DNA of 47,169 nt, taken from the NCBI GenBank assembly GCA_026398275.1, contig JAPLTF010000042.1:1-47169 (forward strand), given 5' to 3'. Below, piece after piece: positions 20,684 through 44,221 of this stretch (positions are counted from its first letter, which is position 1; each line of letters opens with the position of its first letter). This DNA is from Verrucomicrobiota bacterium (GTDB lineage Bacteria; Verrucomicrobiota; Verrucomicrobiia; Chthoniobacterales; Terrimicrobiaceae). The translations under genes and the position numbers were made by a program. The notes under the pieces are model-generated. The model did not search any database. It had not been told where the DNA came from and saw only the letters and a program-made list of their open reading frames with translations.

Positions 20684-20709
20684 CGACATTGCTTTCAAAA
20701 AACGGACAT
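20684..20709 (-). promoter_or_regulatory. Two-unit direct-repeat operator, site A
   Basis: Minus strand: ATGTCC (20709-20704), then GTTTTTTGAAAGCA, then ATGTCG (20689-20684), period 20 bp. It lies about 105 bp before the pseudopilin ATG. The 35 or so bases 5' of it match those 5' of site B. Confidence 0.75.
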
Positions 20710-20803
20710 GGGGGCGTTTTCGGCGGTTGGATCCGGGCCACGTCTGACGGGTGAAATGAATCTTTTAATCGGAACGCGGCTGAATCTTCGGAGAATGAGG
20801 AGA

Positions 20804-23536
20804 TCATTGATCTCGCTCGGTTTGCAGGAAATAAACGCGGTCTTTTTCCAGTTCGAGAGTGTGCACCGAGGAGGATGGCGACACCACCGTTCCGGGCGGC
20901 ATTTCCCTCAGGGCCGCCGGGGACCGCAGATCCAACTCCACCTTGCCCCCGACCATCGGTTGCACCATGACAAAATCTCCCGCCGCGACAACGGCATTGC
21001 CGGGCGGAGTCATGCGCCATGCCCCAGCCCAGGCGGCGAGACGGCTGATTGCCTGTCGCGAGAGGTTGTAAGCCCCCACGAAAACAACTTGGCCGCCCGA
21101 TGCGGGGCGGATCGCCGCCGCTGCGACTTTGCCGGAGGCCGGATAACGCGCCAGCACCGTGGCTGAAGGATCGTCAACGGCCAGCGAAAAACCCGCGATT
21201 TCCTTGATGCGCTCGGCATTCCAAGATTGAGCAGGCTTGTTCCAGCGGTCACCGGCGAGCAGCGGATGCCCGGCATCAAGTGGTCCCTTTTGCACCTCAC
21301 TGGTCGCGGTCTCGAGAGGCCGCAACTTCAACCCAAGCACATCATCCACAAAGGCCTCGCGCCCGGTGCGGAGTTGGACATGCCCGGTGCCTTGGAGCAC
21401 GACGATCGTTGCGCCCGCTTTGCGCAGCGCCTTGATGCGCGCGCCCGTCGCTTCGTCGATGTCCAGCAGGTTCTGCAGCACCACGAGTTTGGCGGGCGGC
21501 ACGAGCCCCTGGCGAAAATCGGCGGCGTAGTAATAGCGCACCGGAACGCCCGAGGCATGCGCCTCGTTCCACTGTTCAATCATTCCCCCCATGTGGAACT
21601 GCGGCAAAGCCGAGCGCGCCCAATCGACCGCCTCCTCGTCGAAAACAAATGCAACTTCTGGAACCGGTGGTTTTGGTGCTTTTTTCGTGATGTTTAGAGC
21701 CTGCTTGATGCTGTCCCAGGCGGATGAGACAAAGCTTTTCTCCGGCGGTTTCTCTGAACTGGCAACTCGCTCATCGCCGAGCTTTTTGATTCGCGCGATC
21801 TCCTCGCGAATCTCGGGATTGGCCCATTCCTCTGTGGGGCCGAAATTCATCAGCGTGGCACCATTGTTCCCGGCCGCCCAGAGGCGGGCGAATTCGCGCC
21901 GCCACATGTCGCGTTGCATGGCCATGTCCTTCGCTCGGCCAACGCTGTCGTCGTTGAAGCTGACGCCTTGGCCGGCAGTGGTGGCCCCCTTCGGACGCCC
22001 CGTCCAGAGGCGATGGTCCATGTCGGCGAGGAAAATTTTCCCGTTGACCGTGTAGGAGTCGAGCAGGGCGTTCATACCACCCACGGCGGGCGGGATTCGC
22101 ACTCCGTAGCCGGGTTGATGGAAGCCGGCGTCGATGTGCGGCGACCGCAGCAGGCGTGAAACCACGGTATTGTCGCGACGGTGCCCCCCATCTCCGACAC
22201 CCCAAGCCGCCACAAACACAGGCCGCGAGGCAGACTCCTTCACGGCGCGGCTAAGTCCCTCGATAAAGTCGGCGCGTCCCTCGGCGAGAAACCGTTTGAA
22301 GTCATACGACCGCCGTTCGTTGACGGGATTGTGGAAACCCGCGCCACCGCAGAGTTCGGCCGCAGGTGGCGGCGCTACTTCATCAAAGGATGTCAACTGG
22401 GTGCCCCAAGCCTGATTGAGAGTTGTCACATCGCCACGATAGCGAGCCGCCGCCCATTTTCGGAATGCAGCCCGCGCAACGGGCGAGTAGTCTCCCCATC
22501 TGGAGGGATTGGTGGCCAGCACACCATCCGGCGGCGACCACGAATAGAGTTGGTCGTCCTGCCCTCCCTTTAGCGAGTAGCCAACCACTCGGTCCGCATA
22601 CGGGCTGGCCTCCACTTCGCGGACGACTTCGCGCACAGCATCGACCGACTCTTTCCGAAATCGTTCCGACATGTAGGAGATCCCATACTGCTCCGGCTTC
22701 CCTCCAGCGGGTTGCGGTGGGCCGTCACGAAAATCCTGAAAATGAGCGGTGCGGATCAGAGACTGCCCGGCGTCGTTTCGGATGACATCGTCGGATGGCT
22801 GTGCATCGGGCGAGACTTTCATTAAACCGCCAACTGGCCCGCTGAGGGCACGCTCCGGATCGGCGAATCCCATTTCGGGGTAATTATCCACCGTCAGGGC
22901 CACGAGAAATCTGGCCTTGGGGTTGGCCTCAGCCGCACGGGCCAGGACTGGTATCACCGAGCCCCTGTTGTATTGGCCAGGGCCGGTCCAAAATGGAGGC
23001 ATATAGGCCACAGGTTCCACATAGCCGACCCGCGGCGAATGAGCTCCGACATTCAGGCTCACTTCAACCAAATCCAAGCCCAGTTTGTCATAGACATTGT
23101 CCACATACCTTCCCCAGAACCCCCAGCGCCCAGCCATGATGTTGAGGGGGTTCCCGGCACTGACGACCATCGGCCGACCATCACCGTCGCGCTCGATCCC
23201 GGAAGACGGAACTTCGCCGACCGCAGGTGGCTTGACTGCGCGGTCCGACACCCGCCGGCAACCCGTGTGAAGCAGGCAAAGGACGGCAAGGCATGCAAGA
23301 GTGAACGAGCCAAGACAACTCGGGAAGAGTGACCCCGATCCGCGCGTCAGCGCGAGGAATGGAGGGCGGTCGCCCCCGGGCGCCTTGGCGAGCAGCCCGA
23401 GGGCGGGCTGCCTCCCTTTATCTATCGTCTGTCGAGCCGCCTCCCTGCGCCCGGCATTCTTACGCACGGATTTCTGTGCTGTTTCATAAATGGGTCTTGA
23501 AGACCGGAATGGGAGTCGTGCGTATTGTGGCGGCAT
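20804..23536 (-). CDS. GH42-like lipoprotein, paralogue of the 16045 gene
   Basis: 910 aa from the only in-frame ATG, at 23536. The hydrophobic lipoprotein signal (FTLACLAVLCLLHTGC) begins only about 75 residues in, too far for a signal peptide, so the true start is probably a non-ATG codon or has been lost. The TIM barrel follows: YNRGSVIPVLARAAEA, RFLVALTVDNYPE, GYSLKGGQDDQLYSW and KIFLADMDHRLW align with the same blocks in the 1141-residue paralogue, with Asp at both expected Glu positions. The shorter C-terminus lacks the final beta sandwich. The stretch between 23337 and 23379, just before the signal, is a dispersed repeat also seen at 28330. Function unproven. Confidence 0.7.
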   Translation of the reverse strand: MPPQYARLPFRSSRPIYETAQKSVRKNAGRREAARQTIDKGRQPALGLLAKAPGGDRPPFLALTRGSGSLFPSCLGSFTLACLAVLCLLHTGCRRVSDRAVKPPAVGEVPSSGIERDGDGRPMVVSAGNPLNIMAGRWGFWGRYVDNVYDKLGLDLVEVSLNVGAHSPRVGYVEPVAYMPPFWTGPGQYNRGSVIPVLARAAEANPKARFLVALTVDNYPEMGFADPERALSGPVGGLMKVSPDAQPSDDVIRNDAGQSLIRTAHFQDFRDGPPQPAGGKPEQYGISYMSERFRKESVDAVREVVREVEASPYADRVVGYSLKGGQDDQLYSWSPPDGVLATNPSRWGDYSPVARAAFRKWAAARYRGDVTTLNQAWGTQLTSFDEVAPPPAAELCGGAGFHNPVNERRSYDFKRFLAEGRADFIEGLSRAVKESASRPVFVAAWGVGDGGHRRDNTVVSRLLRSPHIDAGFHQPGYGVRIPPAVGGMNALLDSYTVNGKIFLADMDHRLWTGRPKGATTAGQGVSFNDDSVGRAKDMAMQRDMWRREFARLWAAGNNGATLMNFGPTEEWANPEIREEIARIKKLGDERVASSEKPPEKSFVSSAWDSIKQALNITKKAPKPPVPEVAFVFDEEAVDWARSALPQFHMGGMIEQWNEAHASGVPVRYYYAADFRQGLVPPAKLVVLQNLLDIDEATGARIKALRKAGATIVVLQGTGHVQLRTGREAFVDDVLGLKLRPLETATSEVQKGPLDAGHPLLAGDRWNKPAQSWNAERIKEIAGFSLAVDDPSATVLARYPASGKVAAAAIRPASGGQVVFVGAYNLSRQAISRLAAWAGAWRMTPPGNAVVAAGDFVMVQPMVGGKVELDLRSPAALREMPPGTVVSPSSSVHTLELEKDRVYFLQTERDQ
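23337..23379. repeat. 43-bp dispersed repeat, copy 1
   Basis: Begins GATCCGCGCGTCAGCG and contains GGAATGGAGGGCGGTCGCCC. 40 of 43 bases match the copy at 28330-28372. GGGCG-GT-CGCCC forms a small hairpin. It sits at the 5' end of the second GH42-like gene. Confidence 0.75.
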
Positions 23537-23731: not shown

Positions 23732-26700
23732 CTATTCGCGGCGCCGGCGGCGCAGGACCATGACGGTCGTGAGGCTGAAAGCCAAGAGCGCCCAGGTCGT
23801 GGGCTCGGGGACGACGGTAAGCATACCGGTCGCATCGTTGAACGATGCCGTATAGCCCAAGGCAAGGCCGCTGAAGTTTTTTGTCCCGAACGACGAGCTG
23901 TAGGACTCGAAGTCAAAGATCTTCACGGAGCCGAGCGTGTTGAAGCTGCCCCCGAAATTCACATTGAGGGTGCCTCCGAAGGTGACCGCTTGGCTGTTCC
24001 CCCGACCAAGTGCGAGATCGTAGCTACCAGCAGTCCAGGCGTTGACTTCGAAGTTCGAGATCGAGTTGAGTGTGAGCGTCAGGTTGTTATCGAATGTCAT
24101 GGTCCCGGGGCTGTTGCCGATGGCCAGCGTGCCGCTGCCTATCGACACTGCACCTATGACGGTTCCATTGCCGGTCAGGGATTGCCCGGTGGCAAGCGTG
24201 AAGCCGGAAACAGCGGAGATATCCAGCGTCGCGTTGTTGTTGATGACCGAGGAGTTGGCCAGACTGCCGGAGCTACTGAGCAGAAGCGTTCCTGCGCTGA
24301 TCGTCGTCGTGCCGGTGTAGGTATTGTTGCCGGAGAGAGTGAGGGTGCCGCTGCCGGACTTGGTGAGACCACCGCCTGAGCCGGAGATGACCCCGGCATA
24401 GGTCGTGCTGGCATTGTTCGCCCCGGTTGTCAGGGTTCTGTTGCCCAGGATCACGTTGCCGGAGGTTGATGTCGAGCCAGCGAGGGAGCCAATCGAGAGG
24501 TTGTTAGCATTAAGATCCAAGGCGGTCGTGCGTGTTCCGTCTCCAGTAAGGGTAACCGCCGAATTGTTGCCAAGGGCGGTTGAGGAACCGGCCCTGACAC
24601 TAACGCCATTTTCGATTGTCGTAGGACCCGTGTAGGTGTTGCTGCCGGAAAGCGTAAAGGTAAGGTTTCCCGTGCCGCCCGGGGCAAACGTCTGCGTAGA
24701 GCCAGCCATTGTCAACGCCCCGCTGCCGCTAATCGTTCCGCCGAAGGTCGCGTTGCCGTTTGCAACGTTGAGGGCAAGGAAGTTTGCGTTCGGGCCGGTC
24801 CCATTGCCAGCGAGAACGATCGCACGAGTGGCGGAGTTAAATCCAGTTGTATCAATCCGGAGTATGCCGCCGGTGCTGCCAGAGCCGAGGTTCAACGCTC
24901 CGCTGGTCGCACCCAGGTTCGTATCGGCATTCACGGCAAGCAAGTTATTGTTCGAGACAAATGTGCCGCCGCTGTAGCTATTGCTAGTCGAGGTGAGACT
25001 AACTCGACGGGTTGCAGGGCTTTGATTGTGGACGACACTTCCATTGCCGCTGATCGTATTGGCATAGGTTACATTAAAAGTCTGCGCATTGAATGCGAGT
25101 GTGCCGTTGTTGATGATGGCGCTGGAACTGGAGATAGCAGGAGTGCCAGCACCTCCCGAGCTGAGAACCAGGGTGCCCGAGCTGATCGTGGTGTTGCCGG
25201 TATAGGTGCTGATGCCCGAGAGCGTGAGTGTGCCGCCACCGTCTTTGGTGACCGTGCCCGTGCTGGTGGTGATGTTGCCGCTGACGATTGTGTTGCCGCT
25301 GCCGCCAAAGGTCAGGTCCTGCGTGCCGGTGATGCCGCCTGCTCCGAGGGTGAGCGTGTTGGCGTCGGAGTTGATCCGGGTCGCACCGGCCAGTGTGATG
25401 ACTCCGGCGTAGGAATTGTTGCCGCTAAGGTTACGCATGGCACCGCCACTGGAGATGCCCGAGCCGGTCAGCGAGAGCGCCTCCGCGCCGATCGCGATGC
25501 CACCCGAGAGTTGCAGGGCGGCACCGTCGGAGACGGCCGTGCCGTCAGCCGTGGAGCCGAGTGCCGTCGCTTTGGCAGCGGTCAAGGCCCCGGTGCTGAT
25601 GGTCGTGGTGCCGGTGTAGGTGCTGCTCCCCGTGCCACCGAGGACAACTGTGCCATTGCCGATCTTGCTCAGGCCGTTCGTCGCCGTGCCGGTAATGTTA
25701 CCCGTGAAGTTGACCGTGCCGTTGGTTGCTGCGGTGAATCGATAGGTGGCATTGGAACCCGAGGCCAGGTTGACGGTTCCCGAGAAGGTGGAGGTGTCCG
25801 CCGTATTACCGCCGAGGGTGCTGGTGTTACTTGCTGCACCCTGGTTCATGTTGATCGCCCGTGCGATCGTGTAGGCCCCGTCGATCAGGACCTGCGCATT
25901 GTCCCCGTTTACATTATTGCTACCAACACTCAGCTGCCCCGTTCCCGCGCCCAGAACGCCGGCAGCTCCTCCAACTCCTGCACTGTCGTTGCCTCGCAAC
26001 AGCAATGTGCCGCGATCAGCAAACAGGTTACTTGATACTCCATTGTTGAAATCGTTGGTTGCGTTAGCCAGCACAACGGTGCCATTGGAGCTGAGAAGAG
26101 TCACAAAAGTCCCGGTAGATCCTGTTATCTTTCCATTGATGGTAAGGGTGTTGCCTGCGCTAGCGGTAAACCTTGCATCTTGCGCCAAGGTGATCGTTCC
26201 ATTCAGGGTCGCATTGCTGACACGCGATTGAATCGTCTTTGTCTGGCTCTGGCCATTGCGAACGAAGGTGATGTCATTGCCGTAGGTGCCGCTTACGGTG
26301 TCTAAGTTCAAGGTTAATGAAGAGGTGGAGGCAGTTCCGGTATTGTCACCGAGAGTCAGGGCTCCGGAGCCCAGTGCAGCAGTATTTGCCAAGTTTAAAA
26401 AACCATCGCGGACGACGACTCCGCCTGTGAAGCTGTTAGTGCCGGAAAGCAGCAAAACGCCACCGGTTCCAGCTTTGATGATTCCAAAATTGCCGGTGAT
26501 ATTCCCGCTGACGGTCAACTGCATGTTGCCAGTCCCGATGCCAGTGTTGGAGACCGACCAGGTCTGGGTGCCATTAAGGGTGACGCTCTCGCTGATGCTA
26601 TGCGTGCGGGCCGTTGTGCTGCCCGGGGTGACGGTGATGCCGCCGGTGCCGATGGTCAGGTCTCCGGCGCCGTTGGCGATGGTGAAGTTGGCGTCACGGT

Positions 26701-26965
26701 TGATGTTGATGCCGGCAAAGTTGACTGCGGTGTTGATCGTCGCGGTGCTGCCACCGGTGCCGAAAGTGACCGTTGAGGTGCCGCTGGTCAGATCTGGCGA
26801 ACTGTCGGAATCCCAGTTCGCGGCGGTGTCGATGTTGGTGTTACCGCCGCCGGCGTCCCAAGTGGTGCCGGCCGAGGCCGATTGGGCGGCGAATGCGGTG
26901 AGGGCGATGGCGCAGCCGAGGGGCCGCAGCAGGGAGAGGGTTTGGCGGGAATGCAGCATTTTCAT
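23732..26965 (-). CDS. Secreted autotransporter-type beta-strand-repeat protein with PEP-CTERM tail
   Basis: 1077 aa from the ATG at 26965 (NMKMLHSRQTLSLLRPLGC); the frame extends to 27157, but that would overlap the operator. A signal peptide (LRPLGCAIALTAFAAQSASA) is followed by about 1000 residues of Gly/Asn/Thr/Ser-rich beta-strand repeats, such as GSGTLTLSGNNTYTGTTTIS recurring with variations. The C-terminus VPEPTTWALLAFSLTTVMV then RRRRRE is a classic PEP-CTERM signal: PEP motif, hydrophobic helix, basic tail. It is presumably processed by an exosortase and displayed at the surface or in an exopolysaccharide matrix. The exosortase is not in the window. The direct-repeat operator (27046-27071) precedes it. 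Codon choice in the repeats creates long false frames on the opposite strand. Confidence 0.88.
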   Translation of the reverse strand: MKMLHSRQTLSLLRPLGCAIALTAFAAQSASAGTTWDAGGGNTNIDTAANWDSDSSPDLTSGTSTVTFGTGGSTATINTAVNFAGININRDANFTIANGAGDLTIGTGGITVTPGSTTARTHSISESVTLNGTQTWSVSNTGIGTGNMQLTVSGNITGNFGIIKAGTGGVLLLSGTNSFTGGVVVRDGFLNLANTAALGSGALTLGDNTGTASTSSLTLNLDTVSGTYGNDITFVRNGQSQTKTIQSRVSNATLNGTITLAQDARFTASAGNTLTINGKITGSTGTFVTLLSSNGTVVLANATNDFNNGVSSNLFADRGTLLLRGNDSAGVGGAAGVLGAGTGQLSVGSNNVNGDNAQVLIDGAYTIARAINMNQGAASNTSTLGGNTADTSTFSGTVNLASGSNATYRFTAATNGTVNFTGNITGTATNGLSKIGNGTVVLGGTGSSTYTGTTTISTGALTAAKATALGSTADGTAVSDGAALQLSGGIAIGAEALSLTGSGISSGGAMRNLSGNNSYAGVITLAGATRINSDANTLTLGAGGITGTQDLTFGGSGNTIVSGNITTSTGTVTKDGGGTLTLSGISTYTGNTTISSGTLVLSSGGAGTPAISSSSAIINNGTLAFNAQTFNVTYANTISGNGSVVHNQSPATRRVSLTSTSNSYSGGTFVSNNNLLAVNADTNLGATSGALNLGSGSTGGILRIDTTGFNSATRAIVLAGNGTGPNANFLALNVANGNATFGGTISGSGALTMAGSTQTFAPGGTGNLTFTLSGSNTYTGPTTIENGVSVRAGSSTALGNNSAVTLTGDGTRTTALDLNANNLSIGSLAGSTSTSGNVILGNRTLTTGANNASTTYAGVISGSGGGLTKSGSGTLTLSGNNTYTGTTTISAGTLLLSSSGSLANSSVINNNATLDISAVSGFTLATGQSLTGNGTVIGAVSIGSGTLAIGNSPGTMTFDNNLTLTLNSISNFEVNAWTAGSYDLALGRGNSQAVTFGGTLNVNFGGSFNTLGSVKIFDFESYSSSFGTKNFSGLALGYTASFNDATGMLTVVPEPTTWALLAFSLTTVMVLRRRRRE

Positions 26966-27045
26966 ATTTGTTTTTGGGTTGAGGTTCGACAAGTCCACTT
27001 TTTCATCTTTCCGCATCCTTGCAATTCCGCCTGCTTGCAAAAACG

Positions 27046-27071
27046 AGACATCGCTTTCAAAAAACAGACAT
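27046..27071 (-). promoter_or_regulatory. Two-unit direct-repeat operator, site B
   Basis: Minus strand: ATGTCT (27071-27066), GTTTTTTGAAAGCG, ATGTCT (27051-27046), period 20 bp, about 80 bp before the PEP-CTERM gene start at 26965. The sequence 5' of it (CAAAAACGCCCCC) matches that 5' of site A. Confidence 0.75.
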
Positions 27072-27343: not shown

Positions 27344-28225
27344 TCAGCGGACGACTGTGCGTGCGGCATAAACGCTGGGCGAGACGCCTTGGCTTTTCTT
27401 GAAGGCCGATGTGAAATGCGAGGCCGATGAGAATCCGCAGTCGTAGGCAAGCACCTTGATCGGGGTTGCTGGTTCCTTGTCGAGGATCGCTCGTGCAGCC
27501 TCCAGGCGCAGCCGCAGGACATAGCTGTGTGGGGGCTCACCGTCATGCTGGATGAAAATCCGCGTGAGATGCCGGAAACTGACCCCGGCCTGAAGGGCCA
27601 GTGCGCGGGCATTCAAGGAATGGCCCAGATTGGTTTTGATGAAGCCGGTGGCGCGCTCGTAAATGAGCTGCGCCCTTGTTGATCCAGCAGTCTTCGTCTC
27701 TGGAGGCTTCGGAATCCCGCACACCGCGTCCAGCACCTCGCCAATCAGGACCATGAGCAGCGAAGAGCAGAGCCCCGGCGTGAAGGCCGAACTGCGTTTG
27801 GAGACCGCCAGGTCCACCAATTGCCGGAGATGCGACGTGACGGCGCGATTTGCGACCACCAGCGGGGCGCGGCCGCGCGCGAATGGAAGGGCCACTTCGG
27901 CCCCGGACGGATCTTTGGCGCTGATCTGGATCCCCAACATAAAACCGCCCCGCGTTTCCCAGTTGTGGGGGGTGTGCGGCGGAATGACCAGCGCCTGTGC
28001 CGGCTTGAGCGCGATGCGCGAGTCATTCACGGTAAAATCGAAACGTGCGGAGAGCGGAAGCTCGATCTGGGTCTCGTCGTGCTGGTGGGTGCCGGGACTG
28101 CCGCTATTGTCATACATGCCGGGTCCCAGATGACATTGCATGCAGCGCAGGCGCAAGGCACCGATGGTGATTTCCCGGCTGCTGATCACGGCGTTGAGCA
28201 GGCGCTCGTTGACGGCGGCAACCAT
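27344..28225 (-). CDS. AraC-family transcriptional regulator
   Basis: 293 aa from the ATG at 28225 (MVAAVNERLLNAVIS); the frame extends to 28336, but that would cover a candidate control site. An N-terminal cupin sensor domain (GTHQHDETQIELPLSARF; PAQALVIPPHTPHNWETRG) is followed by a double helix-turn-helix: LNARALALQAGVSFRHLTRIF and the closing IKVLAYDCGFSSASHFTSAF with KKSQGVSPSVYAA. It probably senses a sugar. It is flanked by genes preceded by the 20-bp direct-repeat sites A, B and C, and AraC proteins bind such asymmetric repeats spaced by two helical turns. I infer, without proof, that it activates these genes. A lone ATGTCC (28266) lies 40 bp before its start. Confidence 0.9.
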   Translation of the reverse strand: MVAAVNERLLNAVISSREITIGALRLRCMQCHLGPGMYDNSGSPGTHQHDETQIELPLSARFDFTVNDSRIALKPAQALVIPPHTPHNWETRGGFMLGIQISAKDPSGAEVALPFARGRAPLVVANRAVTSHLRQLVDLAVSKRSSAFTPGLCSSLLMVLIGEVLDAVCGIPKPPETKTAGSTRAQLIYERATGFIKTNLGHSLNARALALQAGVSFRHLTRIFIQHDGEPPHSYVLRLRLEAARAILDKEPATPIKVLAYDCGFSSASHFTSAFKKSQGVSPSVYAARTVVR

Positions 28226-28329
28226 GGATTTTCTCCAGAGGCGGGGATGGGTTGCTTTGGAAACAATGTCCACTTTTTGGAATGTGCTCAGGGTTGTCCG
28301 ACGTGTCAATCCCCCACCCGCTATCCCCA

Positions 28330-28372
28330 GATCCACGCGTCAGAGCGAGGAATGGAGGGCGGTCACCCCCGG
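28330..28372. repeat. 43-bp dispersed repeat, copy 2
   Basis: Begins GATCCACGCGTCAGAG and contains GGAATGGAGGGCGGTCACCC. Three mismatches to copy 1 at 23337-23379. It lies next to the AraC promoter. Confidence 0.75.
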
Positions 28373-34334: not shown

Positions 34335-34356
34335 GGGCCGTTATCCGCTAACATTC

Positions 34357-35936: not shown

Positions 35937-35948
35937 AATTCAAAAACC

Positions 35949-37040
35949 ATGAAAACCATCGTTACCTTCGGTGAAATCATGGGGCGGCTCTGCCCGTCCG
36001 GCCACCTGCGTTTCGTGCAAGCCATGCCCGGCACGCTCGAACTCACCTTCGCGGGCGCGGAGGCCAACGTCGCCGCCTCGCTCGCCATTTTCGGGGCGGA
36101 CGCCCGCTTCGTCACCGCCCTGCCGAACAATGTGCTCGGCGACTCCTGCGTGCGCACCTTGCGCGGGCTCGGCGTGGATGCTTCGTCCATCATCCGCATC
36201 AAGAGCGGGCGCCTCGGTCTTTATTTCGTCGAGAAAGGCGCGAACCAGCGTCCGAGCAATGTCGTTTACGACCGCGCGCACAGCGCGATCGCCGAGGCCG
36301 GTGCGGCGGACTTCGACTGGGCTTCCATTTTCCACGGTGCCGGCTGGCTGCACACCACGGGCATCACGCCGGCGCTCTCGCGCAAGGCCTTCGAGTCCTG
36401 CCTCGCCGCGGTCCGTGCCGCCAAGGCGGCCGGGATGACGGTTTCCTGCGACCTGAACTTCCGCAAAAAGCTCTGGGACTGGGAGCCGGGGACGAAGTCC
36501 ACCGAACTGGCCCGCCGCTGCATGAGCGAAATCCTGCCGCATGTGGATGTCTGCATCGCCAACGAGGAGGATGCCGCCGATGTGCTAGGCATCCACGCCG
36601 AAGGCAGCGACATCCATGGCGGCCAGCTCGCCATCGCGCACTACCCGCAAGTCGCCAGGGAAATCATCCGGCAGTTCCCCAACATCCGGCAGGTCGCCAT
36701 CACGCTGCGCGAAAGCCTCTCCGCCTCGCACAACAACTGGGGCGCGATGCTCTATCACGCCACCTCCGATCAAGCGTTCTTCGCCCCGCTCCAGGACGGC
36801 AGCTACGCCCCCTACGAGATCCGCAACATCGTGGACCGCGTCGGCGGCGGCGACAGCTTCGGGGCCGGATTGGTCTTCGCGCTCAACACGCCCGAACTCT
36901 CCGCTCCGGAACAGGCGATCCGTTTTGCCGTGGCCGCCTCGTGCCTCGCGCACTCGATCGAAGGCGACTTCAACTTTTCCTCACGTGCCGAAGTCGAGGC
37001 GCTCATGGGCGGCAACGCCTCCGGGAGGGTGGTGCGATGA
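35949..37040 (+). CDS. PfkB-family sugar-acid kinase (2-keto-3-deoxygluconate kinase-like)
   Basis: 363 aa. Starts MKTIVTFGEIMGRLCPSGHLRF; GLGVDASSIIRI and the signature DRVGGGDSFGAGLVF (catalytic Asp in GGGDSFGAG, about residue 302) identify the ribokinase fold. CDLNFRKKLWDW with Asn-Phe-Arg and CIANEEDAADVLGI are the usual KdgK and ribokinase ATP-side blocks. It should phosphorylate the 2-keto-3-deoxy acid from the dehydratase upstream; the known product would be cleaved by an aldolase that is not in this window. It overlaps the next gene by 4 bases (ATGA). Confidence 0.85.
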   Translation: MKTIVTFGEIMGRLCPSGHLRFVQAMPGTLELTFAGAEANVAASLAIFGADARFVTALPNNVLGDSCVRTLRGLGVDASSIIRIKSGRLGLYFVEKGANQRPSNVVYDRAHSAIAEAGAADFDWASIFHGAGWLHTTGITPALSRKAFESCLAAVRAAKAAGMTVSCDLNFRKKLWDWEPGTKSTELARRCMSEILPHVDVCIANEEDAADVLGIHAEGSDIHGGQLAIAHYPQVAREIIRQFPNIRQVAITLRESLSASHNNWGAMLYHATSDQAFFAPLQDGSYAPYEIRNIVDRVGGGDSFGAGLVFALNTPELSAPEQAIRFAVAASCLAHSIEGDFNFSSRAEVEALMGGNASGRVVR

Positions 37041-38008
37041 GCTTGCCAAAGGTTCTTATCACCAACCACGTTCCCGACGCCCATCTCGAGCCTTTGCTCG
37101 GGCTCGCGGAAATCATCAAGGGTCCTTCCGGTGGGCCAATGTGCTCGCGAGAGGAAGTGCTGGCGCTCGCGCCGGAACTCTCCGCCATCATCAACCAGCA
37201 TGAACTCGCCGTGGACCGCGAGTTGCTCGCCGCCGCGCCGAAGCTGCGAATCGTGGCCAATGTCGCAATCGGCTACAACAACCTCGACATCGCCGCGCTC
37301 GATGAGGCCGGCGTCTGGGGTGCCAACTGCCCGGGCGTCTTTGCGGAATCGGCGGCCGACCACACGCTGGCGCTGCTGCTGGCGGTGGCCCGCCGCGTGA
37401 CCGATGCCGATGCCTACGTGCGTTCCGGCCAATGGGCGAAGGATGGTTTCCAACCCGGCCCTTGGGATGGAATGCTGTTAGGAGGCAAAACCATCGGGAT
37501 CGTCGGCTTCGGGCAAATCGGCCGGGCGGTTGCCAAGCGGGCCGAGGCCTTCGGCATGCGGATTATCTTCCATGACGCCACCGGTCACGACGACCCGCGC
37601 TATCGTTCGCTCGAAACCTTGCTGGCGGAAGCCGACGTGGTCAGTCTGCACGTGCCGCTGCTGCCGGAAACCCATCACCTCTTCAACGCACAAACCATCG
37701 CGCTCATGAAGCGCGGTGCGATCATCCTCAATCTGGCGCGCGGTCCGGTGGTGGATGAGAACGCTCTTGCCGCCGCACTCGCCAGCGGGCATCTTGGCGG
37801 CGCCGGCATGGATGTCGCCGAGAACGAACCGCAGATCCATCCCGGCCTCCTCGCACAAAAGAATGTCGTCTTCTCACCGCACATCGGCGGTGGCACGGTG
37901 GAAAGCCGCAAGCAGGCGCGCCTCACCTGCGCCCGCAATGTTGCCGAAGTCCTCCATGGCCGCCCGCCGATCAACCCAGTGAATCGCCTACGCATCCGTC
38001 AAAATTAA
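37037..38008 (+). CDS. D-isomer-specific 2-hydroxyacid dehydrogenase
   Basis: 323 aa from the ATG at 37037 (MSLPKVLITNHVPDA). GIVGFGQIGRAV is the NAD-binding loop. The catalytic triad is seen as NLARGPVVDE (Arg), DVAENEP (Glu) and SPHIGGGTVESR (His). The substrate side holds ANVAIGYNNLDIAALDEAG. It would reduce a 2-keto acid such as glyoxylate, hydroxypyruvate or a keto sugar acid. Coupled to the PfkB kinase, so a role in the sugar-acid branch is inferred. Confidence 0.88.
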   Translation: MSLPKVLITNHVPDAHLEPLLGLAEIIKGPSGGPMCSREEVLALAPELSAIINQHELAVDRELLAAAPKLRIVANVAIGYNNLDIAALDEAGVWGANCPGVFAESAADHTLALLLAVARRVTDADAYVRSGQWAKDGFQPGPWDGMLLGGKTIGIVGFGQIGRAVAKRAEAFGMRIIFHDATGHDDPRYRSLETLLAEADVVSLHVPLLPETHHLFNAQTIALMKRGAIILNLARGPVVDENALAAALASGHLGGAGMDVAENEPQIHPGLLAQKNVVFSPHIGGGTVESRKQARLTCARNVAEVLHGRPPINPVNRLRIRQN

Positions 38009-38017
38009 TCCACACTT

Positions 38018-38908
38018 ATGAACACCATCACTGCAAAACAACTCCACAACTGGTGCCGGGTTCCGGCAGCTGAACTTGAAACTCATCCCGACCGCAAAGT
38101 GCCTTTCCGCATTGCTGCCGATTCGGCGGCAATGGGTGCCCTCATGGCCCGCGAGCTTGCGGACCTCATCGTGGGCAACAACGCAAAAAACCTGCCGACC
38201 CGCGCGATCATACCCTGTGGTCCAGCCTGCTGGTATAAGCCATTTGCCGAAGTCGTGAACCGTGAGCAGATCAGCTTGCGCGATGTCACGGTTTTCCACA
38301 TGGACGAATGCCTCGACTGGCAGGGCCGCGAGTTGCCGCGCATGCATCCGTATAGTTTCCGGGGATTCATGGAGCGCGAGTTCTATGGTCCGATCAACCC
38401 CGGGTTGCTCACGCCGGAGGAAAACCGCTGGTGGCCGAACGCGACGAATTTCCAGAAAATTGCCGATGAGATCGCCCGCGCGCCGATCGACATCACCTAC
38501 GGCGGTTGGGGGCAGGACGGCCACATCGCCTACAACCAGGCGCGGCGCCACCCCTTCAGTTCGCTCTCGCTCGAGGATCTGCGCAACTGCAGCGTGCGCG
38601 TGCAGGACAACAATCTCGATACCATCATCGCCCTCGCCCAGCGCACCTTCGGCTGCGCCTACCAGTTTGTGCCGCCGATGAGCGTGACCCTTGGCATCAA
38701 GGAATGCCTCTCGGCCAAAAAGGTGCGGCTCTTCAGCGACACCGGCGCATGGAAACAAACCGCACTGCGCGTGGCGCTCTTCAGCGAACCGACGCCGGAG
38801 TATCCGATGACCCTTCTGCAAGAGCATCCCGACGCCCTCGTCACGGCCACCTTGGAAACCGCCACGCATCCGGTGAGTATCCATCCCGAGTGGGATCTCG
38901 GGCTTTAA
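38018..38908 (+). CDS. NagB-family glucosamine-6-phosphate deaminase-like protein
   Basis: 296 aa. AADSAAMGALMARELADLI and VTVFHMDECLDW (catalytic Asp and neighbours) are family blocks. YGGWGQDGHIAYNQARRH is the conserved Gly-rich, Asp/His-containing catalytic loop, in place of GIGxDGHIAFNEP. Family enzymes convert glucosamine 6-phosphate to fructose 6-phosphate plus ammonia; here the substitution of the Phe-Asn-Glu tail by Tyr-Asn-Gln may change specificity. It fits an amino-sugar catabolic role alongside the GlcNAc-handling genes at 8216-11175. Spacing of 9 bp from the dehydrogenase and 14 bp to the next gene. Confidence 0.72.
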   Translation: MNTITAKQLHNWCRVPAAELETHPDRKVPFRIAADSAAMGALMARELADLIVGNNAKNLPTRAIIPCGPACWYKPFAEVVNREQISLRDVTVFHMDECLDWQGRELPRMHPYSFRGFMEREFYGPINPGLLTPEENRWWPNATNFQKIADEIARAPIDITYGGWGQDGHIAYNQARRHPFSSLSLEDLRNCSVRVQDNNLDTIIALAQRTFGCAYQFVPPMSVTLGIKECLSAKKVRLFSDTGAWKQTALRVALFSEPTPEYPMTLLQEHPDALVTATLETATHPVSIHPEWDLGL

Positions 38909-38922
38909 TCGATACGGGCACC

Positions 38923-39942
38923 ATGACACCCACCCGAAAATACGATGCCATGATCGGCACCGGAGGCATCGGCACCGGGACCTTCTTCGCGTTGAGCGGC
39001 AACCACACGCTCGGCCGCGAGGAGAGCCGGGGTGGACAATTCCTCGACCGTCGCGACTACTGCAAGCTGCATATCATCAGCCACTATGTGCAGCGCCTGG
39101 TGGGTGGGGATTTCAAAATCCTGCCGGTGGGCAGAGTCGGCGACGATGCTGCCGGACGCAGGCTGGTGGAAGAAATGCGCGCCGAGGGCCTCGATGTCTC
39201 GCACACCGTCATCATGCTCGGCGAGCAGACGCTCGATTGCATTTGCCTCCTCTATCCCGATGGCTCGGGCGGGAACCTCACGGTCACTGACTCCGCCAGC
39301 GGACGCGTGACTGCGGGAGATATTCAAAAAGCCGCGCCGCAATTTACCCGATACGCCGGGCGCGGCATTGCGCTGGCGGTGCCTGAGGTTCCGCTGGCCG
39401 CGCGCCTGGAACTGCTCGACCTCGCGCATCAACACGGCTTCCTGCGTGCGTCGTCGTTTTCTTCCGAGGAAATGGCAGCCGTGCGCGACACCTCTCTACT
39501 CTCGCGGGTGGACCTTCTGGCCATCAATCTCGACGAGGCCGCTAGCCTCGCGGAAACCAGCGCCGAAGGGGAACAGGCGGCCATCGTCCAAAAGATCGCC
39601 GCCCATCTCGGGCCGCAATTCCCGCAGCTGAAGCTTTCCATCACCGCCGGAGCGATTGGCAGTTGGACCGTTGATGGCGGCGCGCTCCATTTCATCGCCA
39701 CGCCGAAGGTCGAGGTTCAAAGCGCGGCGGGTGCGGGCGACGCGCATTTCTCCGGTATCCTTGCCGGTCTCGCTGCAGGTCTTGCCCTCGCCGATGCCCA
39801 GTGGATCGGCATTCTCGCCGGAGCCATGTCGGTCACCAGCGCCCACACGATCCACCCCGACATCGATCGCCACGCGTTGCGCGACTTTGCCGCCAGCCAT
39901 GGCCTCACCCTGCCTGCCACCGTTCAAGAATTTCTCCAATAA
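38923..39942 (+). CDS. PfkB-family carbohydrate kinase
   Basis: 339 aa from the ATG at 38923 (MTPTRKYDAMIGTGGIGTG); the frame extends upstream inside the NagB-like gene, which is chance. The C-terminal signature SAAGAGDAHFSGILAGLAAG (catalytic Asp about residue 269) and the N-terminal GGxGxG block identify the fold. LLAINLDEAASLAETSAEGE is the ATP-side helix. With the isomerase at 30731 it may act as fructokinase for mannose use, but a KDG-type or nucleoside-type substrate is also possible. Confidence 0.75.
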   Translation: MTPTRKYDAMIGTGGIGTGTFFALSGNHTLGREESRGGQFLDRRDYCKLHIISHYVQRLVGGDFKILPVGRVGDDAAGRRLVEEMRAEGLDVSHTVIMLGEQTLDCICLLYPDGSGGNLTVTDSASGRVTAGDIQKAAPQFTRYAGRGIALAVPEVPLAARLELLDLAHQHGFLRASSFSSEEMAAVRDTSLLSRVDLLAINLDEAASLAETSAEGEQAAIVQKIAAHLGPQFPQLKLSITAGAIGSWTVDGGALHFIATPKVEVQSAAGAGDAHFSGILAGLAAGLALADAQWIGILAGAMSVTSAHTIHPDIDRHALRDFAASHGLTLPATVQEFLQ

Positions 39943-39957
39943 ACCAAATACACCACC

Positions 39958-40269
39958 ATGCCTGTCACCATGCGCATCCTCCAGCAGTTCGATGTCCGTA
40001 AGGAAAAAGAATTCCTCGAACTCGAACGCCGCTTCGCCGCCCTCGAACACTCCCGCCCCGACCTCCCGCAAGGCAAACGCATGAAGCCGATCTCCGGCAG
40101 CGAGCCATGCAACACGCTCGTCTGGCAGGGCGAGTTCGCCAGCCTCGACGAGGCCCGCAAGGCGCTCGATGCCTTCGCCGCCGATGACACCCACGAGGAA
40201 CTTTTCGCCAAGCAGTCGGAGTTTTTCAAATCCGTCAAAATCGAGTTTTACGAAAACCTCGACTACTGA
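39958..40269 (+). CDS. Small NIPSNAP/EthD-like dimeric alpha-beta barrel protein
   Basis: 103 aa. Pattern beta-alpha-beta-beta-alpha-beta: MRILQQFDVRKEKEFLELERRF, then TLVWQGEFASLDEARKALDAF, then VKIEFYENLDY. This fits a ferredoxin-like dimer of the NIPSNAP or EthD kind, which I recognise only by pattern. No catalytic residue is evident. It lies 15 bp after the kinase and 4 bp before the amidohydrolase, so it is probably a partner of one of them. No ribosome-binding site before the start (AATACACCACCATG). Confidence 0.5.
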   Translation: MPVTMRILQQFDVRKEKEFLELERRFAALEHSRPDLPQGKRMKPISGSEPCNTLVWQGEFASLDEARKALDAFAADDTHEELFAKQSEFFKSVKIEFYENLDY

Positions 40270-40273
40270 AGCC

Positions 40274-41317
40274 ATGCAGCGGGTCATCGACATCCACACC
40301 CATGTGTTTCCGCACTATGCCGACCTCGCTGTCGCGGCGATGGACCGCAGCGGGATCGAACTCTCCGTTGTGCTGGCATGGCACGATGGCTTCGGAGAGG
40401 GACTGCAACGCCACCTCGATGCCTTCGCCAAATACCCGGGACGATTCATCACCTTCGGCAATGTCGATTTCAGCCGCATCAATGAGCCGGACTTTGCCAA
40501 GACCGCTGCCGCGCACATGGAGCGCGATTTTGCCGCAGGCATGCGCGGGCTGAAAGTTTACAAGGCCCTCGGCCTCGATTACCGCCGCCCCGATGGCCGC
40601 TACTGGCGGCCGAACGATCCCGAGCTCGACCCGATCTGGGCGAAGGCCGGAGAGTTGGGATTGCCGGTGCTCATCCACAGCGCCGACCCGCCATGCTTCT
40701 GGGAACCGGTGAACGAATTCAATTTCTGGAACGGCGTCCTCCACGGCGAATACGCCTGGTGGACCTATTACAACAAAGGCATGCCGTCAGCGCACGAACT
40801 GCTCGCCGATCGCATTGAAATGGTGGCGCGCCACGATGGCACCACGTTCATCTTCCCGCATTGCGCGGAAAAAGCCGACTCCCTCGACTGCGCCGCCGAG
40901 GACCTCGATGCGCACCCGAACATCGTCTATGATTTCTCGGCCCGCGTCCCGGAACTCGCGCGCAGCGCCCGCCGCGCCGCCCACACCCGCGAGTTTTTCA
41001 CCGCCTATGCCGAGCGCATCTTTTTCGGCACCGATGTGATCTTTGACGACACCAATGTCCCGACCGGCCAACAGGCGCAGATCCTCTATCAACCCGGCGA
41101 GATCCCGCTCAACGGTGCTGAACCGAGGGAGCGCTACATCGAGACGACCGCAGCCTTCAACATCTCCAACATCGAGTTGATCACCTCGTCGAAGATCCAA
41201 ACATCGCCGCCATTCAGACGCAGCATCGCGCCATTTGAAATCCACGGCCTCGGCCTGCCCGAGGACATCGCTGCAAAACTCCTCCATCAAAACGCCGTGC
41301 GCCTGCTGGGCCTGTAG
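40274..41317 (+). CDS. Amidohydrolase-family metal-dependent hydrolase
   Basis: 347 aa from the ATG at 40274 (MQRVIDIHTHVFP). The HxH of DIHTHVF (His8, His10), LIHSADP, FIFPHCAEKAD and FFGTDVIFD (Asp) are the four metal-ligand blocks of the amidohydrolase superfamily TIM barrel. GLKVYKALGLDYRR supplies the region of the carboxylated Lys. Relatives include sugar lactonases and decarboxylases, so in an operon with a sugar-acid dehydratase a lactonase role is conceivable. Neither substrate nor reaction can be read. Confidence 0.75.
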   Translation: MQRVIDIHTHVFPHYADLAVAAMDRSGIELSVVLAWHDGFGEGLQRHLDAFAKYPGRFITFGNVDFSRINEPDFAKTAAAHMERDFAAGMRGLKVYKALGLDYRRPDGRYWRPNDPELDPIWAKAGELGLPVLIHSADPPCFWEPVNEFNFWNGVLHGEYAWWTYYNKGMPSAHELLADRIEMVARHDGTTFIFPHCAEKADSLDCAAEDLDAHPNIVYDFSARVPELARSARRAAHTREFFTAYAERIFFGTDVIFDDTNVPTGQQAQILYQPGEIPLNGAEPRERYIETTAAFNISNIELITSSKIQTSPPFRRSIAPFEIHGLGLPEDIAAKLLHQNAVRLLGL

Positions 41318-41332
41318 AGCTTTTAAAACACC

Positions 41333-43804
41333 ATGAAGAAAACCATCCACCTCATCGGCAACGCCCACCTCGATCCGGTCTGGCTCTGGGACCGGCGCGA
41401 AGGGCTCAACGAAGGCCTCACCACCGTCCGCACCATGCTCGACCTGATGGACGAGTTTCCCGAAATGACATTCATTCGCGGCGAGTCGGCGATCTATCAG
41501 CATGTCGAGAAATACGATCCGGTGAGCTTTGCACGCATCAAAAAGATGGTCAAAGCCGGGCGCTGGGATGTCGTGGGCGGCACTTACATCCAGCCCGATA
41601 CCAACCTACCCGGCACCGAGACGCTTGTGCGCCAGTATGCCCACGGGCAGCGCTATTTCAAATCGCGCTTCGGCAAGGCCGTCACCGCCGGCTGGCAGGC
41701 CGATTCGTTCGGCCACACGGCGGGTCTGCCGGAAATCCTTGCGGCGAGCGGCATCAACTTCTTTGCCTTCAGCAGGCCAAACTCCAAAATCATTCCCCTC
41801 GCGGAACCGGCATTCTGGTGGGTGGGTGATGGCGGTGCGCGGATTCTGGCACAGCGTTCGGCCACGGGCTCTTACCAGAACGAACGCTATAACATGCGCG
41901 AGCATTTGGACTATATCCTGGAGGTTCACGCCAGGAGCAGACTGGAAAACATCGCCTGCTTCTATGGCCTGGGAAATCACGGCGGCGGGCCTTCGCGCCG
42001 ACATTTGCTGGAAATCCGCGAATGGGCGGCCAAGCATCCCGAGGTGAAGGTCACCCACTCGGGGCTGCACAAACTCAATGACGCGCTGCGCAAGGAGATC
42101 GCCCGCAAAGGCGAGGATCTGATCCCGACCCACAAGGGCGAGCTCAATTCCTGCCTGCGCGGTTGTTATTCCTCCGTGGCGAAATTCAAATTCCCCTACC
42201 GCCGCAGCGAGGCCTTGCTCGCCCGCGCCGAGGCGACCGATGCGATTGTTGCCGCCTCGCAGAAGCGTCCGGCCGCCGATCTCTCGAAGACCTGGGAGGT
42301 GATGATCTTCAATTCCTTCCACGACATCCTGCCAGGCTCGAGCATCGAGCGGGCAATGGACGACCAGATCGCCTCGCTCGGCGGCATCCTCCACGATGCG
42401 GCGGAAACGGAGTTCGACGCGCTCAACGCGCTCGCCGCCGAGATCGACACCACGCTTACCCGCAAGCCTCCGAAGGATCATCCCTCGGCGGTGACCTCGC
42501 TCGTTTGGAATCCACATCCCTTCCGCTACGACGGCCCGATCGAGTTGGAGACCAGCCTCGATTACCGTCCCTTGTTGGAAAATTACACCAACCGCGATGA
42601 AGAGGTGCCGATCGAAGTGCTGGGCGCGGACCGCAAGCCGGTTCCTTTTCAAATCATCCGCAACGAACACTCGAGTATGAAAGAGTTTCCATGGCGCAAG
42701 CGCGTGGTCTTGCCGGTGAGCCTTCCTGCCTTCGGTTGGAATGTGGTGGAGCTCGGATGGGTCGAGGGCGCCAAGCCGCTTGTCGTAAAAAACCCGGTGA
42801 AGGCGAAGCCTAGTTCCATCGCCAATGCACTCTGGCGCGTCGAGGCGAAGAAGGGGGAAAGCGGCGTGCAGTTCTTCCATCAGGGAAAAAAGTTTTTCGC
42901 AGGCGATGGTTTGCAAGCCGTGCTCTTCGACGATCCATGGGGTTCTTGGGGCGGGATGCAGGAGGAGCCCGATTCCTTCCTGCTCAAAAAGGTGCGCGAA
43001 CATTGGAAGATCAGCGAAGTCGAGTTGCTCGAAGAAGGCCCCGAACGCGCCGCGCTCTGGGTGCGCTTCGCCGGCAAGAAATCCCGCATCGACCTCACCT
43101 TCCATGTGTCGCGCGACCGCGATGTGGTGGATGTCTCGGCGCGTGTGCTGATCGATGATCGCTCGGTCCGACTCAAGTTGGTTTTCCCTGGGGGCGATCA
43201 GGTGGACTACGAAGTGCCCGCAAGCGTGGTGCGGCGCGGTCCTGCCGGGGAGGTCCCCGGTGCCCGCTGGACGCGGGTCCATGGCAAGAACGGCGGCATG
43301 GGGTTTGCCAGCGACGCCTTGTATAATTTCGACAGCGAGAAAGGCGAGTTCCGCGCCACGGTGGCCCGCGCCTCGCGCTACGCCAACGATGTGGAGACTC
43401 CCGCCAATGCCGAACTCTGGCGTCCTGCGGTCGATTGCGGGGAACTGAAATTCCGCTTCCTCGTCACCGATGCCAAGGCCGACCTGCCGCGACTTGCCGC
43501 CGAACTCGAACAAGCCCCCGTGGTGCTCACGGTGCCGCCGGGCAAGGGGAAACAGAAGCGCACAGGTTCATTGCTGGAGCTCACGCCTTCATCTGTGCGA
43601 CTCCTTGCGCTCAAGCGCGCCGAGGATGGACGCGGATTCATCCTGCGCGCTCAAGCAGCCCCGGGCAAAGCGGTGAAAGTTTCCATGCTCTGGCTCGGCA
43701 AGAAGATCCAACTCGGCGAATTGAACGGCGGCGAGATCGCGACCTGGAAACTGCAAGAATCAAAGACCGGATGGAATGCCGCCCGTCAATCCGTTACTGG
43801 CTAA
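41333..43804 (+). CDS. GH38 alpha-mannosidase
   Basis: 823 aa, a normal GH38 length. NAHLDPVWLW gives the zinc ligands His12 and Asp14, and GWQADSFGHTAGLP gives the nucleophile Asp124. FHDILPGSS carries the further zinc His. The central three-helix bundle (RRSEALLARAEATDAIV) and the C-terminal beta-sandwiches are in place. No signal peptide: it probably trims alpha-linked mannose from imported N-glycan-type oligosaccharides. Product mannose could go to the isomerase at 30731. Last full-length gene of the long operon. Confidence 0.92.
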   Translation: MKKTIHLIGNAHLDPVWLWDRREGLNEGLTTVRTMLDLMDEFPEMTFIRGESAIYQHVEKYDPVSFARIKKMVKAGRWDVVGGTYIQPDTNLPGTETLVRQYAHGQRYFKSRFGKAVTAGWQADSFGHTAGLPEILAASGINFFAFSRPNSKIIPLAEPAFWWVGDGGARILAQRSATGSYQNERYNMREHLDYILEVHARSRLENIACFYGLGNHGGGPSRRHLLEIREWAAKHPEVKVTHSGLHKLNDALRKEIARKGEDLIPTHKGELNSCLRGCYSSVAKFKFPYRRSEALLARAEATDAIVAASQKRPAADLSKTWEVMIFNSFHDILPGSSIERAMDDQIASLGGILHDAAETEFDALNALAAEIDTTLTRKPPKDHPSAVTSLVWNPHPFRYDGPIELETSLDYRPLLENYTNRDEEVPIEVLGADRKPVPFQIIRNEHSSMKEFPWRKRVVLPVSLPAFGWNVVELGWVEGAKPLVVKNPVKAKPSSIANALWRVEAKKGESGVQFFHQGKKFFAGDGLQAVLFDDPWGSWGGMQEEPDSFLLKKVREHWKISEVELLEEGPERAALWVRFAGKKSRIDLTFHVSRDRDVVDVSARVLIDDRSVRLKLVFPGGDQVDYEVPASVVRRGPAGEVPGARWTRVHGKNGGMGFASDALYNFDSEKGEFRATVARASRYANDVETPANAELWRPAVDCGELKFRFLVTDAKADLPRLAAELEQAPVVLTVPPGKGKQKRTGSLLELTPSSVRLLALKRAEDGRGFILRAQAAPGKAVKVSMLWLGKKIQLGELNGGEIATWKLQESKTGWNAARQSVTG

Positions 43805-43810
43805 CCATTC

Positions 43811-44221
43811 ATGACAGCACACCGCCAAATCCACATTGATTTCCACACGCCCGCCGGAGTGACCGTCGGCGACAAGTTTAATGCCGTCGAATTCTTCGAC
43901 ACGCTCGAATCGGCGATGGTCAATTCCATTGCGATCTTCGCCAAGTGCCACCACGGCTATTCCTACTTCGACACGAAGGTCGGCACGCGTCATCCGGGGC
44001 TGAGCTTCGACATGCTCGGGCAGGCGGTTGCGGAGGCCGCCAGCCTGCAACGAGGCTGCTCGGTGCTTGCGCCTTGCCACCGACAAAAATCTGCTGCGCC
44101 ATTTTATGTAAACTATATTTCTGAGCAGCGCCTTACCTCCGAAATGTCCATTTTTCGAAGGAGATGTCCATTATTTGATTATGAATGCCGTTGCTTCTGG
44201 ACTGAAGATGAAGTCGATTGA
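43811..44221 (+). pseudogene. Truncated paralogue of the 5088 glycosidase
   Basis: The first 75 or so residues match the 5088 gene: HRQIHIDFHTPAGVTVGDKF, SIAIFAKCHHGYSYFDTKVG, RHPGLSFDML. Similarity ends near 44045 (VAEAAS). From there the frame reads unrelated residues to a TGA at 44219, and another frame reads LATDKNLLRHFM to a stop at about 44108, possibly the tail of a different gene. So the remaining 600 residues are deleted. The gene begins 6 bp after the GH38 stop, as an operon member would. Operator site E lies in the unrelated portion, so its reading frame there is meaningless. Confidence 0.82.

Follow-up and report, generated by a model that had tools for sequence, protein, structure and literature searches.

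The window analysed here is the complete contig C47 (47,169 bp) of the 4.66-Mb genome of a Verrucomicrobiota bacterium (G000, in 117 contigs). It carries four copies of a tandem direct repeat, which we term operators A to D, standing before a pseudopilin gene, a PEP-CTERM gene, a BNR (sialidase-like) gene that heads a run of sugar-catabolism genes, and a gene for a secreted protein with a lectin-like fold. The gene for an AraC/XylS-type regulator (araC; Pfam HTH_18 and AraC_binding) lies between B and C, where an initial annotation of the stretch had placed it. A second genome with related sites, G017 (GenBank JAPLTI01, Verrucomicrobia), belongs to another genus of the same family. The principal features are as follows.

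20670..20709, minus strand: operator A, a direct repeat of two 20-bp units ahead of the pseudopilin gene, found by pattern and matrix; kept before the G017 orthologue (L030 3579-3618)
27032..27071, minus strand: operator B, two units before the PATR/PEP-CTERM gene, found by pattern and matrix; kept in G017 (L059 4146-4185)
28611..28650, plus strand: operator C, a pair of units ahead of the BNR-led genes and likewise within the 5' intergenic region of araC, found by pattern and matrix
44144..44183, plus strand: operator D, two units before the lectin-fold gene, found by pattern and matrix; kept in G017 (L030 11708-11747)
27344..28336, minus strand: AraC/XylS-type regulator, cupin-like N-terminal domain and HTH_18 (Pfam); likely real start near 28270
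19844..20578, minus strand: pseudopilin gene, likely start ATGTTAGC, 91 bp past operator A; the open frame reaches 20674
23732..26965, minus strand: autotransporter-type beta-strand repeat (PATR) protein ending in a PEP-CTERM tail; its likely start lies 66 bp past operator B
28691..30634, plus strand: BNR protein heading the catabolic run (BNR_2, 59.3 bits), likely start ATGACAACAACA, 88 bp past operator C
44267..45022, plus strand: secreted beta-sandwich protein (D protein), with a concanavalin-A-like (L-type lectin) fold in its structure model

Each operator is a 40-bp tandem of two head-to-tail 20-bp units (ATGTCYNNTTTTYGMARGCR-like), and all four lie in intergenic DNA, which makes up 8.7% of the window in the gene set of this analysis. 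They were found at the coordinates and on the strands given by the initial annotation, each facing its gene. The description of ATGTC(C/T) occurring twice per site holds except for the second unit of A, which reads ATGTCG, and the proposed extent of 26 bp proved too short, as the second copy also holds most of the T-run and GA part, giving 40 bp. The proposed position of 80-105 bp before the start agrees with distances of 105, 80, 102 and 97 bp from the 26-bp sites A to D to the likely starts; measured from the 5' end of the sites these become 131, 106, 128 and 123 bp, and the gaps between operator and likely start fall within 66-91 bp overall, with constant orientation. When up to three mismatches are allowed, ATGTCYNNTTTTYGAANGNNATGTC has four matches in the window, which are A to D, and none in 100 dinucleotide shuffles. 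The looser pair ATGTC-N15-ATGTC, with two mismatches, shows no excess (26 in the window versus a mean of 30 in shuffles), and because it is at chance level the significance of the sites rests on the perfect ATGTC pair together with the T-run core. Tandem direct repeats about two helical turns apart are the layout sought for an AraC/XylS operator, and the four sites of 20-bp units have it, which would be consistent with an AraC-type reader.

The motif is rare in its own genome. The initial annotation had named random placement across the genome as a refuting outcome; run genome-wide, the test showed non-random placement, with five clear sites in 4.66 Mb, of which four are in the window locus. 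The unit pattern with at most one mismatch occurs at nine places genome-wide, all of them within A to D or within a three-unit site on contig C16, and a three-mismatch match on contig C38 of the same genome looks like chance. The C16 site (C16:1048-1107, three tandem units) is the fifth clear site and lies inside a partial duplicate of the window: C16:990-5910 is a mosaic of window parts, matching the B promoter region at 78%, the araC 3' end at 98% and the end of the gene at 45062 at 96%, and C16 has a paralogue of window 5109-7114 (86%). We treat the site as a relic because the likeness to the window ends at C16:990, before a PATR gene would start.

The same contig bears on the DNA around araC. 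The stretch separating araC from operator B (window 27146-27335) matches, at 97% identity, a portion of a hipA-type gene region on C16 (L008 1293-2911), where the hipA-type gene scores 153 bits with HipA_C and a HipB-like neighbour is below the cut-off; given this identity, the window seems to carry a deletion remnant of the hipA region. Elsewhere on C16 (L008 2994-3748) the 3' ends of araC and of a 45062-type gene meet (window 27331-27635 and 46717-47169), and since the window contig ends inside this repeated stretch, the assembly break there may have arisen from it.

The regulator is a protein of 330 amino acids that matches only Pfam families of the helix-turn-helix and cupin types, with no sensor kinase fused. 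Its C-terminal double helix-turn-helix (HTH_18, residues 246-325) scores 72.3 bits against a cut-off of 33.6, and the N-terminal AraC_binding match is marginal (22.6 bits, cut-off 21.1). The protein matches PDB 3oio_A with an E-value of 8e-12, and in a structure model the helix-turn-helix part matches 3oio (TM 0.81 of target) and MarA. The whole-length model matches ToxT and Rns at E about 1e-9 with a TM of only about 0.3, and its N-terminal part aligns with the sensor domains of AraC, RhaR and BgaR at a TM of only about 0.5 of target. It is the sole regulator recognised among 30 window proteins scanned with Pfam, a scan that covered all but a few short frames. When six proteins of its clade are aligned, with recognition-helix positions that we take to be those of MarA, the motif R-(H/Q)-x-(T/H)-R is retained in the first recognition helix, and the second helix varies more.

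Comparison with G017, which has an AraC orthologue (51-52% identical), shows how the operators are kept. Four clear operators are found there, before the pseudopilin and lectin-fold orthologues (both on C161), before the PATR orthologue (the end of which runs off G017 contig C38), and before a BNR paralogue on C66 that is followed by orthologues of the MR_MLE and 2-hydroxyacid dehydrogenase genes; this last site (L060 438-477) is a strong one. Aligned without gaps, the 40-bp operators keep 25-27 of 40 bases between window and G017, compared with 5-12 of 40 in the upstream and 11-14 of 40 in the downstream flanks. A matrix trained on the four G017 sites only selects A to D as the four best 20-bp-spaced pairs of the window, with scores of 31.6, 28.9, 28.4 and 15.9; the next pair scores 13.0, and 40 simulated windows have a maximum of 17.9 and a mean of 5.9. 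Operator A ranks second, and C ranks fourth at 15.9, just under the highest simulation. With this matrix 20 bp is the best of the spacings from 16 to 26. The units also differ in a concerted manner: the 3' box is GAAAGC-type in the window and TTAAAC-type in G017, and the first units of all four G017 operators have AACAG in the place of the AAGC-type or AGGA ends of the window, a joint change that is as expected if one diverging regulator read all the operators. Identity to G017 is 51% for AraC, 74% for the pseudopilin and 67-94% for the compared enzymes, from which AraC stands out as more diverged. By eye, G017 also shows a pair with 21-bp spacing that faces araC (about L030 7150-7190), which is excluded from all counts.

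The distribution of the operator was compared with that of the regulator across 213 genomes of the order. A strict scan with at most two mismatches finds several sites only in G017 and the window genome, and one in G008. A relaxed exact pattern, ATGTCNNNTTYTNNNAANNNNYGTCY, occurs at 13 places in 5 of the 213 genomes (G000, G005, G008, G009 and G017), with one match for the reversed control, and a profile of the AraC clade at E<=1e-30 recovers the same five (at most 10 candidates scored per genome). Chance alone would give this agreement with a probability of about 1.5e-5 among the 26 genomes of the family and of 3e-10 across the order, relatedness being ignored. Two of the places, G008:C69:13353 (lectin-fold gene) and 27754 (BNR gene), were not used in drawing the pattern and flank a clade AraC, which was absent from a first-look search and found by the profile search (both with at most 10 candidates scored per genome). 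In a class-wide sample of 384 genomes, to which G017 does not belong, the relaxed pattern marks five, namely four of the five known carriers and a single place in the distant G472 that we take as chance, and the reversed control again gives one match; a class-level AraC search at 1e-40 (at most five candidates scored per genome) finds the window genome only.

A stricter pattern run over 84,980 species returns 24 stretches, four of them in JAPLTI01 (the window's own genome may be excluded from this set). The idea of a universal AraC half-site was rejected, since an AraC-like frame was found in the flanks of only one of the 20 non-G017 stretches (L076, weak), using a small home-made AraC hidden Markov model of seven sequences on the fetched flanks; we attribute these stretches to chance or to other systems. 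Among them, L071, L075, L080 and L066 (Petralouisia, two Chitinophaga species and a Ruminococcus) carry good-looking 20-bp tandem repeats of a similar ATGTCC..TTTT form, and the same model found no AraC-like gene in their fetched flanks.

The AraC proteins of G005, G008 and G009 are only 27-31% identical to that of the window, and 20-bp tandem pairs are present in their loci, the scores of which were judged against 15 first-order simulations per locus. A pair before a G008 gene with PATR and PEP-CTERM matches (C48) scores 28.4 against a simulation maximum of 13.9; pairs in G009 stand before two BNR genes (20.2 and 17.4) and a homologue of the 16045 gene (14.8), the maximum again being 13.9. 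Two other contigs, on neither of which a clade AraC was seen, each carry a single pair: one before a lectin-fold gene on G005 C5 (17.1 against 10.5) and one before a secreted protein on G008 C35 (21.0 against 13.0). A different AraC-type gene (L061 6463-7350), about 20% identical, lies near that secreted gene, and because of it the C35 site may belong to another regulator. Further sites on G005 C156 resemble those of G009 in sequence and place.

The proteins behind these sites are related to those of the window. Each of the relatives' five BNR proteins behind an accepted site passes the BNR_2 cut-off and shares 44-67% identity with the window protein. The D protein is distantly homologous (22-25%) to the lectin-fold proteins of G005, G008 and G009; these have VPEP-type tails, which in the three scanned match PEP-CTERM subfamily models below cut-off. 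In BLAST with low-complexity masking the D protein is matched by the G017 and G005 C5 lectin-fold proteins only; unmasked, it matches those of G009 and G008 C69 at 7e-8 and that of G005 C156 at 0.16 (tiny-database E-values), and the last matches the G009 protein at 3e-78, its link to D otherwise running through relatives. Two further pairs, one beside araC in G009 (L032 9140, 11.2) and one near a PATR gene at L027 15217 (16.7), were seen and excluded from the counts. The genes divergent from the BNR genes (L032 18314-19999, L027 15068-18034, L097 19018-19998) encode repeat proteins with an N-terminus that is protease-like by eye; the L027 protein matches TIGR02601 and PEP-CTERM above cut-off, and the possible extra operator at 15217 belongs to this locus.

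Over the five genomes 19 sites were accepted, leaving out the C16 relic, a degenerate site and the araC-facing pair of G017, the G009 pair beside araC, and L027 15217. Their targets are BNR (6), lectin-fold (6), PATR (3), pseudopilin (2), GH-like (1) and other secreted (1) genes, so that 18 of the 19 precede one of five gene classes, several of the sites being orthologous copies. ATGTC, T10 and A16 of unit 1 and G3 and C5 of unit 2 are present in every site, a conservation that is partly a product of selection because sites were picked by matrix and pattern. Between unit 2 and the likely start lie 42-93 bp.

The targets in the window correspond to those named by the initial annotation (a pseudopilin set at A, a PEP-CTERM protein at B, a sialidase-led (here BNR-led) catabolic run at C and a secreted beta-sandwich protein at D), as judged from Pfam, NCBIfam and the structure model. 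The pseudopilin matches N_methyl (30.9 bits) and TIGR02532 above cut-off and GspG-like models below it, and the PATR protein matches PATR at 77.5 bits as well as TIGR02601 and TIGR02595 above cut-off. The label of sialidase is a weak one: BNR_2 is above cut-off, but there is no NCBIfam family and one marginal PDB match, to the exo-alpha-sialidase 7lbu (E 6e-4, with no single stretch passing alone). No NanA-type lyase or ROK-type kinase of a sialic-acid pathway was recognised by Pfam among the 30 window proteins; a YhcH-type gene is carried on G017 C66. The model of the D protein, for which five relatives were used (mean pLDDT 74), aligns over some 180-190 residues with lectins, ERGIC-53 and calreticulin (Z about 13-14; Foldseek, VIA-align), the top two rows (Z 14.6-14.8) being a phage fibre domain, and its lectin fold alone is no proof of sugar binding.

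We hypothesise, with good confidence, that the AraC-type product of the gene at 27344-28336 has A to D as its operators and would co-activate the catabolic genes and surface or secreted modules for glycan capture. What was computed in its support are the sites themselves, their rarity, their conservation against diverged flanks, the co-occurrence with the AraC clade and the recurring target classes. The earlier suggestion that one AraC regulator links surface proteins and glycan catabolism is thereby supported at the level of sequence, as the operator pattern and the clade share one set of five genomes out of 213 and the target classes recur. We propose that binding, ligand and activation would be arranged as follows. 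An AraC dimer would bind the tandem 20-bp units, one subunit on each, and within a unit ATGTC would probably be read by the first helix-turn-helix, and the A-rich 3' box, which varies more, by the second. Given the position at 66-91 bp and the constant orientation, AraC would most likely be an activator that recruits RNA polymerase, triggered once a sugar set free from the target glycan occupies its cupin-like domain. The BNR protein, sugar isomerase, sugar-acid dehydratase, kinases, MFS importer and GH38 would then be switched on jointly, alongside the pseudopilin, the PATR/PEP-CTERM protein and the lectin-fold protein, and these three modules may bind the glycan or keep it at the cell surface.

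Several observations weigh against this hypothesis. Presence of the relaxed pattern in the five genomes is circular, because it was drawn from their sites, and only its absence in the other 208 genomes is a real test; the strict pattern at three mismatches matches 18 of 213 genomes, mostly once. The G008 C69 sites are orthologous copies, as 26 of 26 bases equal those of G009 in the same genus, and are best read as confirming that the sites are conserved, not that they recurred independently. With 12.3 the lectin-fold site of G009 is under its simulation maximum of 13.9 and the G005 C156 pairs (11.8 and 10.4) are under 15.9; these sites rest on their mutual likeness. On the 9-kb contig G005 C5 the site is present and a clade AraC was not seen. 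Pairs at other spacings also beat simulation (L026, 15.2 at 22 bp; L031, 16.3 at 19 bp inside a PATR frame), from which it follows that the simulations understate chance near 15-17 and that such scores are unsafe alone. In G017 the BNR orthologue beside araC has a degenerate site only (22.6), the strong site being at the C66 paralogue, and AraC is not alone in having diverged, since identity to G017 is nearly as low for the D protein (55%) and the PATR protein (58%). No consistent -10/-35 element was established when the promoters were read by eye.

It might instead be that the sites are read by some other regulator encoded elsewhere in the genome (another AraC protein, a two-component regulator or a LacI protein) and that araC is a linked passenger. 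The genome has many AraC-like candidates (60 at first look), the G017 locus contains a LacI gene, and a second AraC-family gene lies beside the clade AraC in G009 and, by eye, in G008 C69. However, the agreement of operator pattern and AraC clade in the same five genomes, the position of araC as sole recognised regulator among the 30 window proteins scanned, and the use of direct repeats about 21 bp apart by AraC-type proteins elsewhere make this improbable in our view. We give far less credence to the possibility that the sites stem from the copying of a dispersed repeat or a duplicated promoter and are not operators read in trans. Operators A and B are 73% identical across 115 bp (blastn), because of which their promoters are partly paralogous and do not count as independent, a further point against our hypothesis, and the C16 duplicate of the B region carries three units. 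A tandem-repeat or mobile-element origin is nevertheless disfavoured for C, D and the G017 sites, as C and D resemble A and B little outside the units, the G017 units persist amid flanks that have drifted to near chance identity, no further copies occur in 4.66 Mb, and the target classes recur in five genomes. Least credible of all is that the units are the core promoter of an alternative sigma factor or an RNA leader element, which their fixed orientation 42-93 bp before the likely start codon would suit, but tandem repetition in an exact 20-bp register, with up to three units, is to our knowledge not a usual sigma-factor layout, no Rfam family matches the window at gathering score, and the distribution tracks one AraC clade.

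The hypothesis that AraC reads A to D has precedents. AraC-type regulators with direct repeats about 21 bp apart control sugar genes (PMC3878776, PMC3870299). The hybrid two-component regulons of Bacteroides likewise combine an AraC DNA-binding domain, operators of ~21-bp direct repeats and local regulons for polysaccharide use, but here the regulator is a one-component protein in which no kinase domain was found and the spacing is 20 bp; in addition, unlike the Bacteroides polysaccharide-utilisation loci (PUL), no SusC/SusD was found by Pfam among the 30 window proteins, the partners being pseudopilin, PEP-CTERM and lectin-fold proteins (PMC3878776). One-component AraC rhamnose regulators of Bacillales, Bacteroides and Enterococcus share the family, the 21-bp-periodic direct repeats and a role in sugar catabolism, a likeness in family, layout and role; their targets are other ones, and the spacing here is 20 bp (PMC3870299). 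The Akkermansiaceae MUL2 system, a type IV-like pilus for glycan attachment, is also from Verrucomicrobiota and ties a pilin-type protein to glycan use; it comprises four genes with PilM (MUL2B) and an archaeal-type pilin (MUL2A), whereas here a TIGR02532-type pseudopilin stands behind an operator shared with catabolic genes (PMC13174399). No PilM-type family was found among the 30 window proteins scanned with Pfam, and among the matches listed in the open-licence PMC literature there was no regulon joining a pseudopilin, PEP-CTERM proteins and glycan catabolism.

The remaining genes that follow the operator targets are these.

19467..19856, minus strand: small protein, next on the strand after the pseudopilin, no Pfam family, likely secreted (by eye)
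16045..19470, minus strand: large protein, no Pfam family, 32% identical to the GH42-like protein at 20804-23536 and 86% to G017
14041..16029, minus strand: GH3 beta-glucosidase-like protein, next downstream (Pfam)
30731..43804, plus strand: catabolic genes, namely D-lyxose isomerase, one unassigned, MFS transporter, MR_MLE dehydratase, PfkB kinase, 2-hydroxyacid dehydrogenase, NagB-like protein (below NCBIfam cut-off), second PfkB, amidohydrolase and GH38
45062..47167, plus strand: CBM_4_9 protein after the lectin-fold gene (Pfam), in the same order in G017

From strand and spacing, the catabolic genes at 30731..43804 probably form one operon. A 47-bp element, possibly an interspersed repeat, occurs at 23333-23379 and 28326-28372 (91% identical), near the starts of the GH42-like gene and araC, and window 9133-11175 is a single open frame with an APH-type kinase and a sugar epimerase family, either a fusion or two genes run together by a frame artefact.

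Direct-repeat AraC regulons are already known, and what would be new is that an orphan pseudopilin and PEP-CTERM proteins stand under a regulator of glycan catabolism. Our analysis suggests that one AraC-type regulator controls sugar-breakdown enzymes plus surface proteins, and hints that the surface proteins help to catch the sugar. The window genome has 43 prepilin-type N-termini and 34 PEP-CTERM tails, and 12 of the 34 lie within 5 kb of a pilin, compared with about 3 expected under uniform placing. More tentatively, and with rather less than even confidence, we propose that the family may have its own counterpart of the Bacteroides Sus/PUL logic, with an outer-surface capture layer in which pseudopilins, PEP-CTERM beta-strand-repeat proteins and L-type-lectin-fold proteins are specific to a substrate and every such set is tied by a one-component AraC of its own to one glycan pathway, in which case the 43 pilins and 34 PEP-CTERM proteins would represent many such sets. 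An operator that is common to a sugar-catabolism run, and that is kept amid drifting flanks, would give the three surface modules a testable role in glycan capture under a substrate-sensing AraC, and the operator matrix together with the co-occurrence rule could be used to find further sets.

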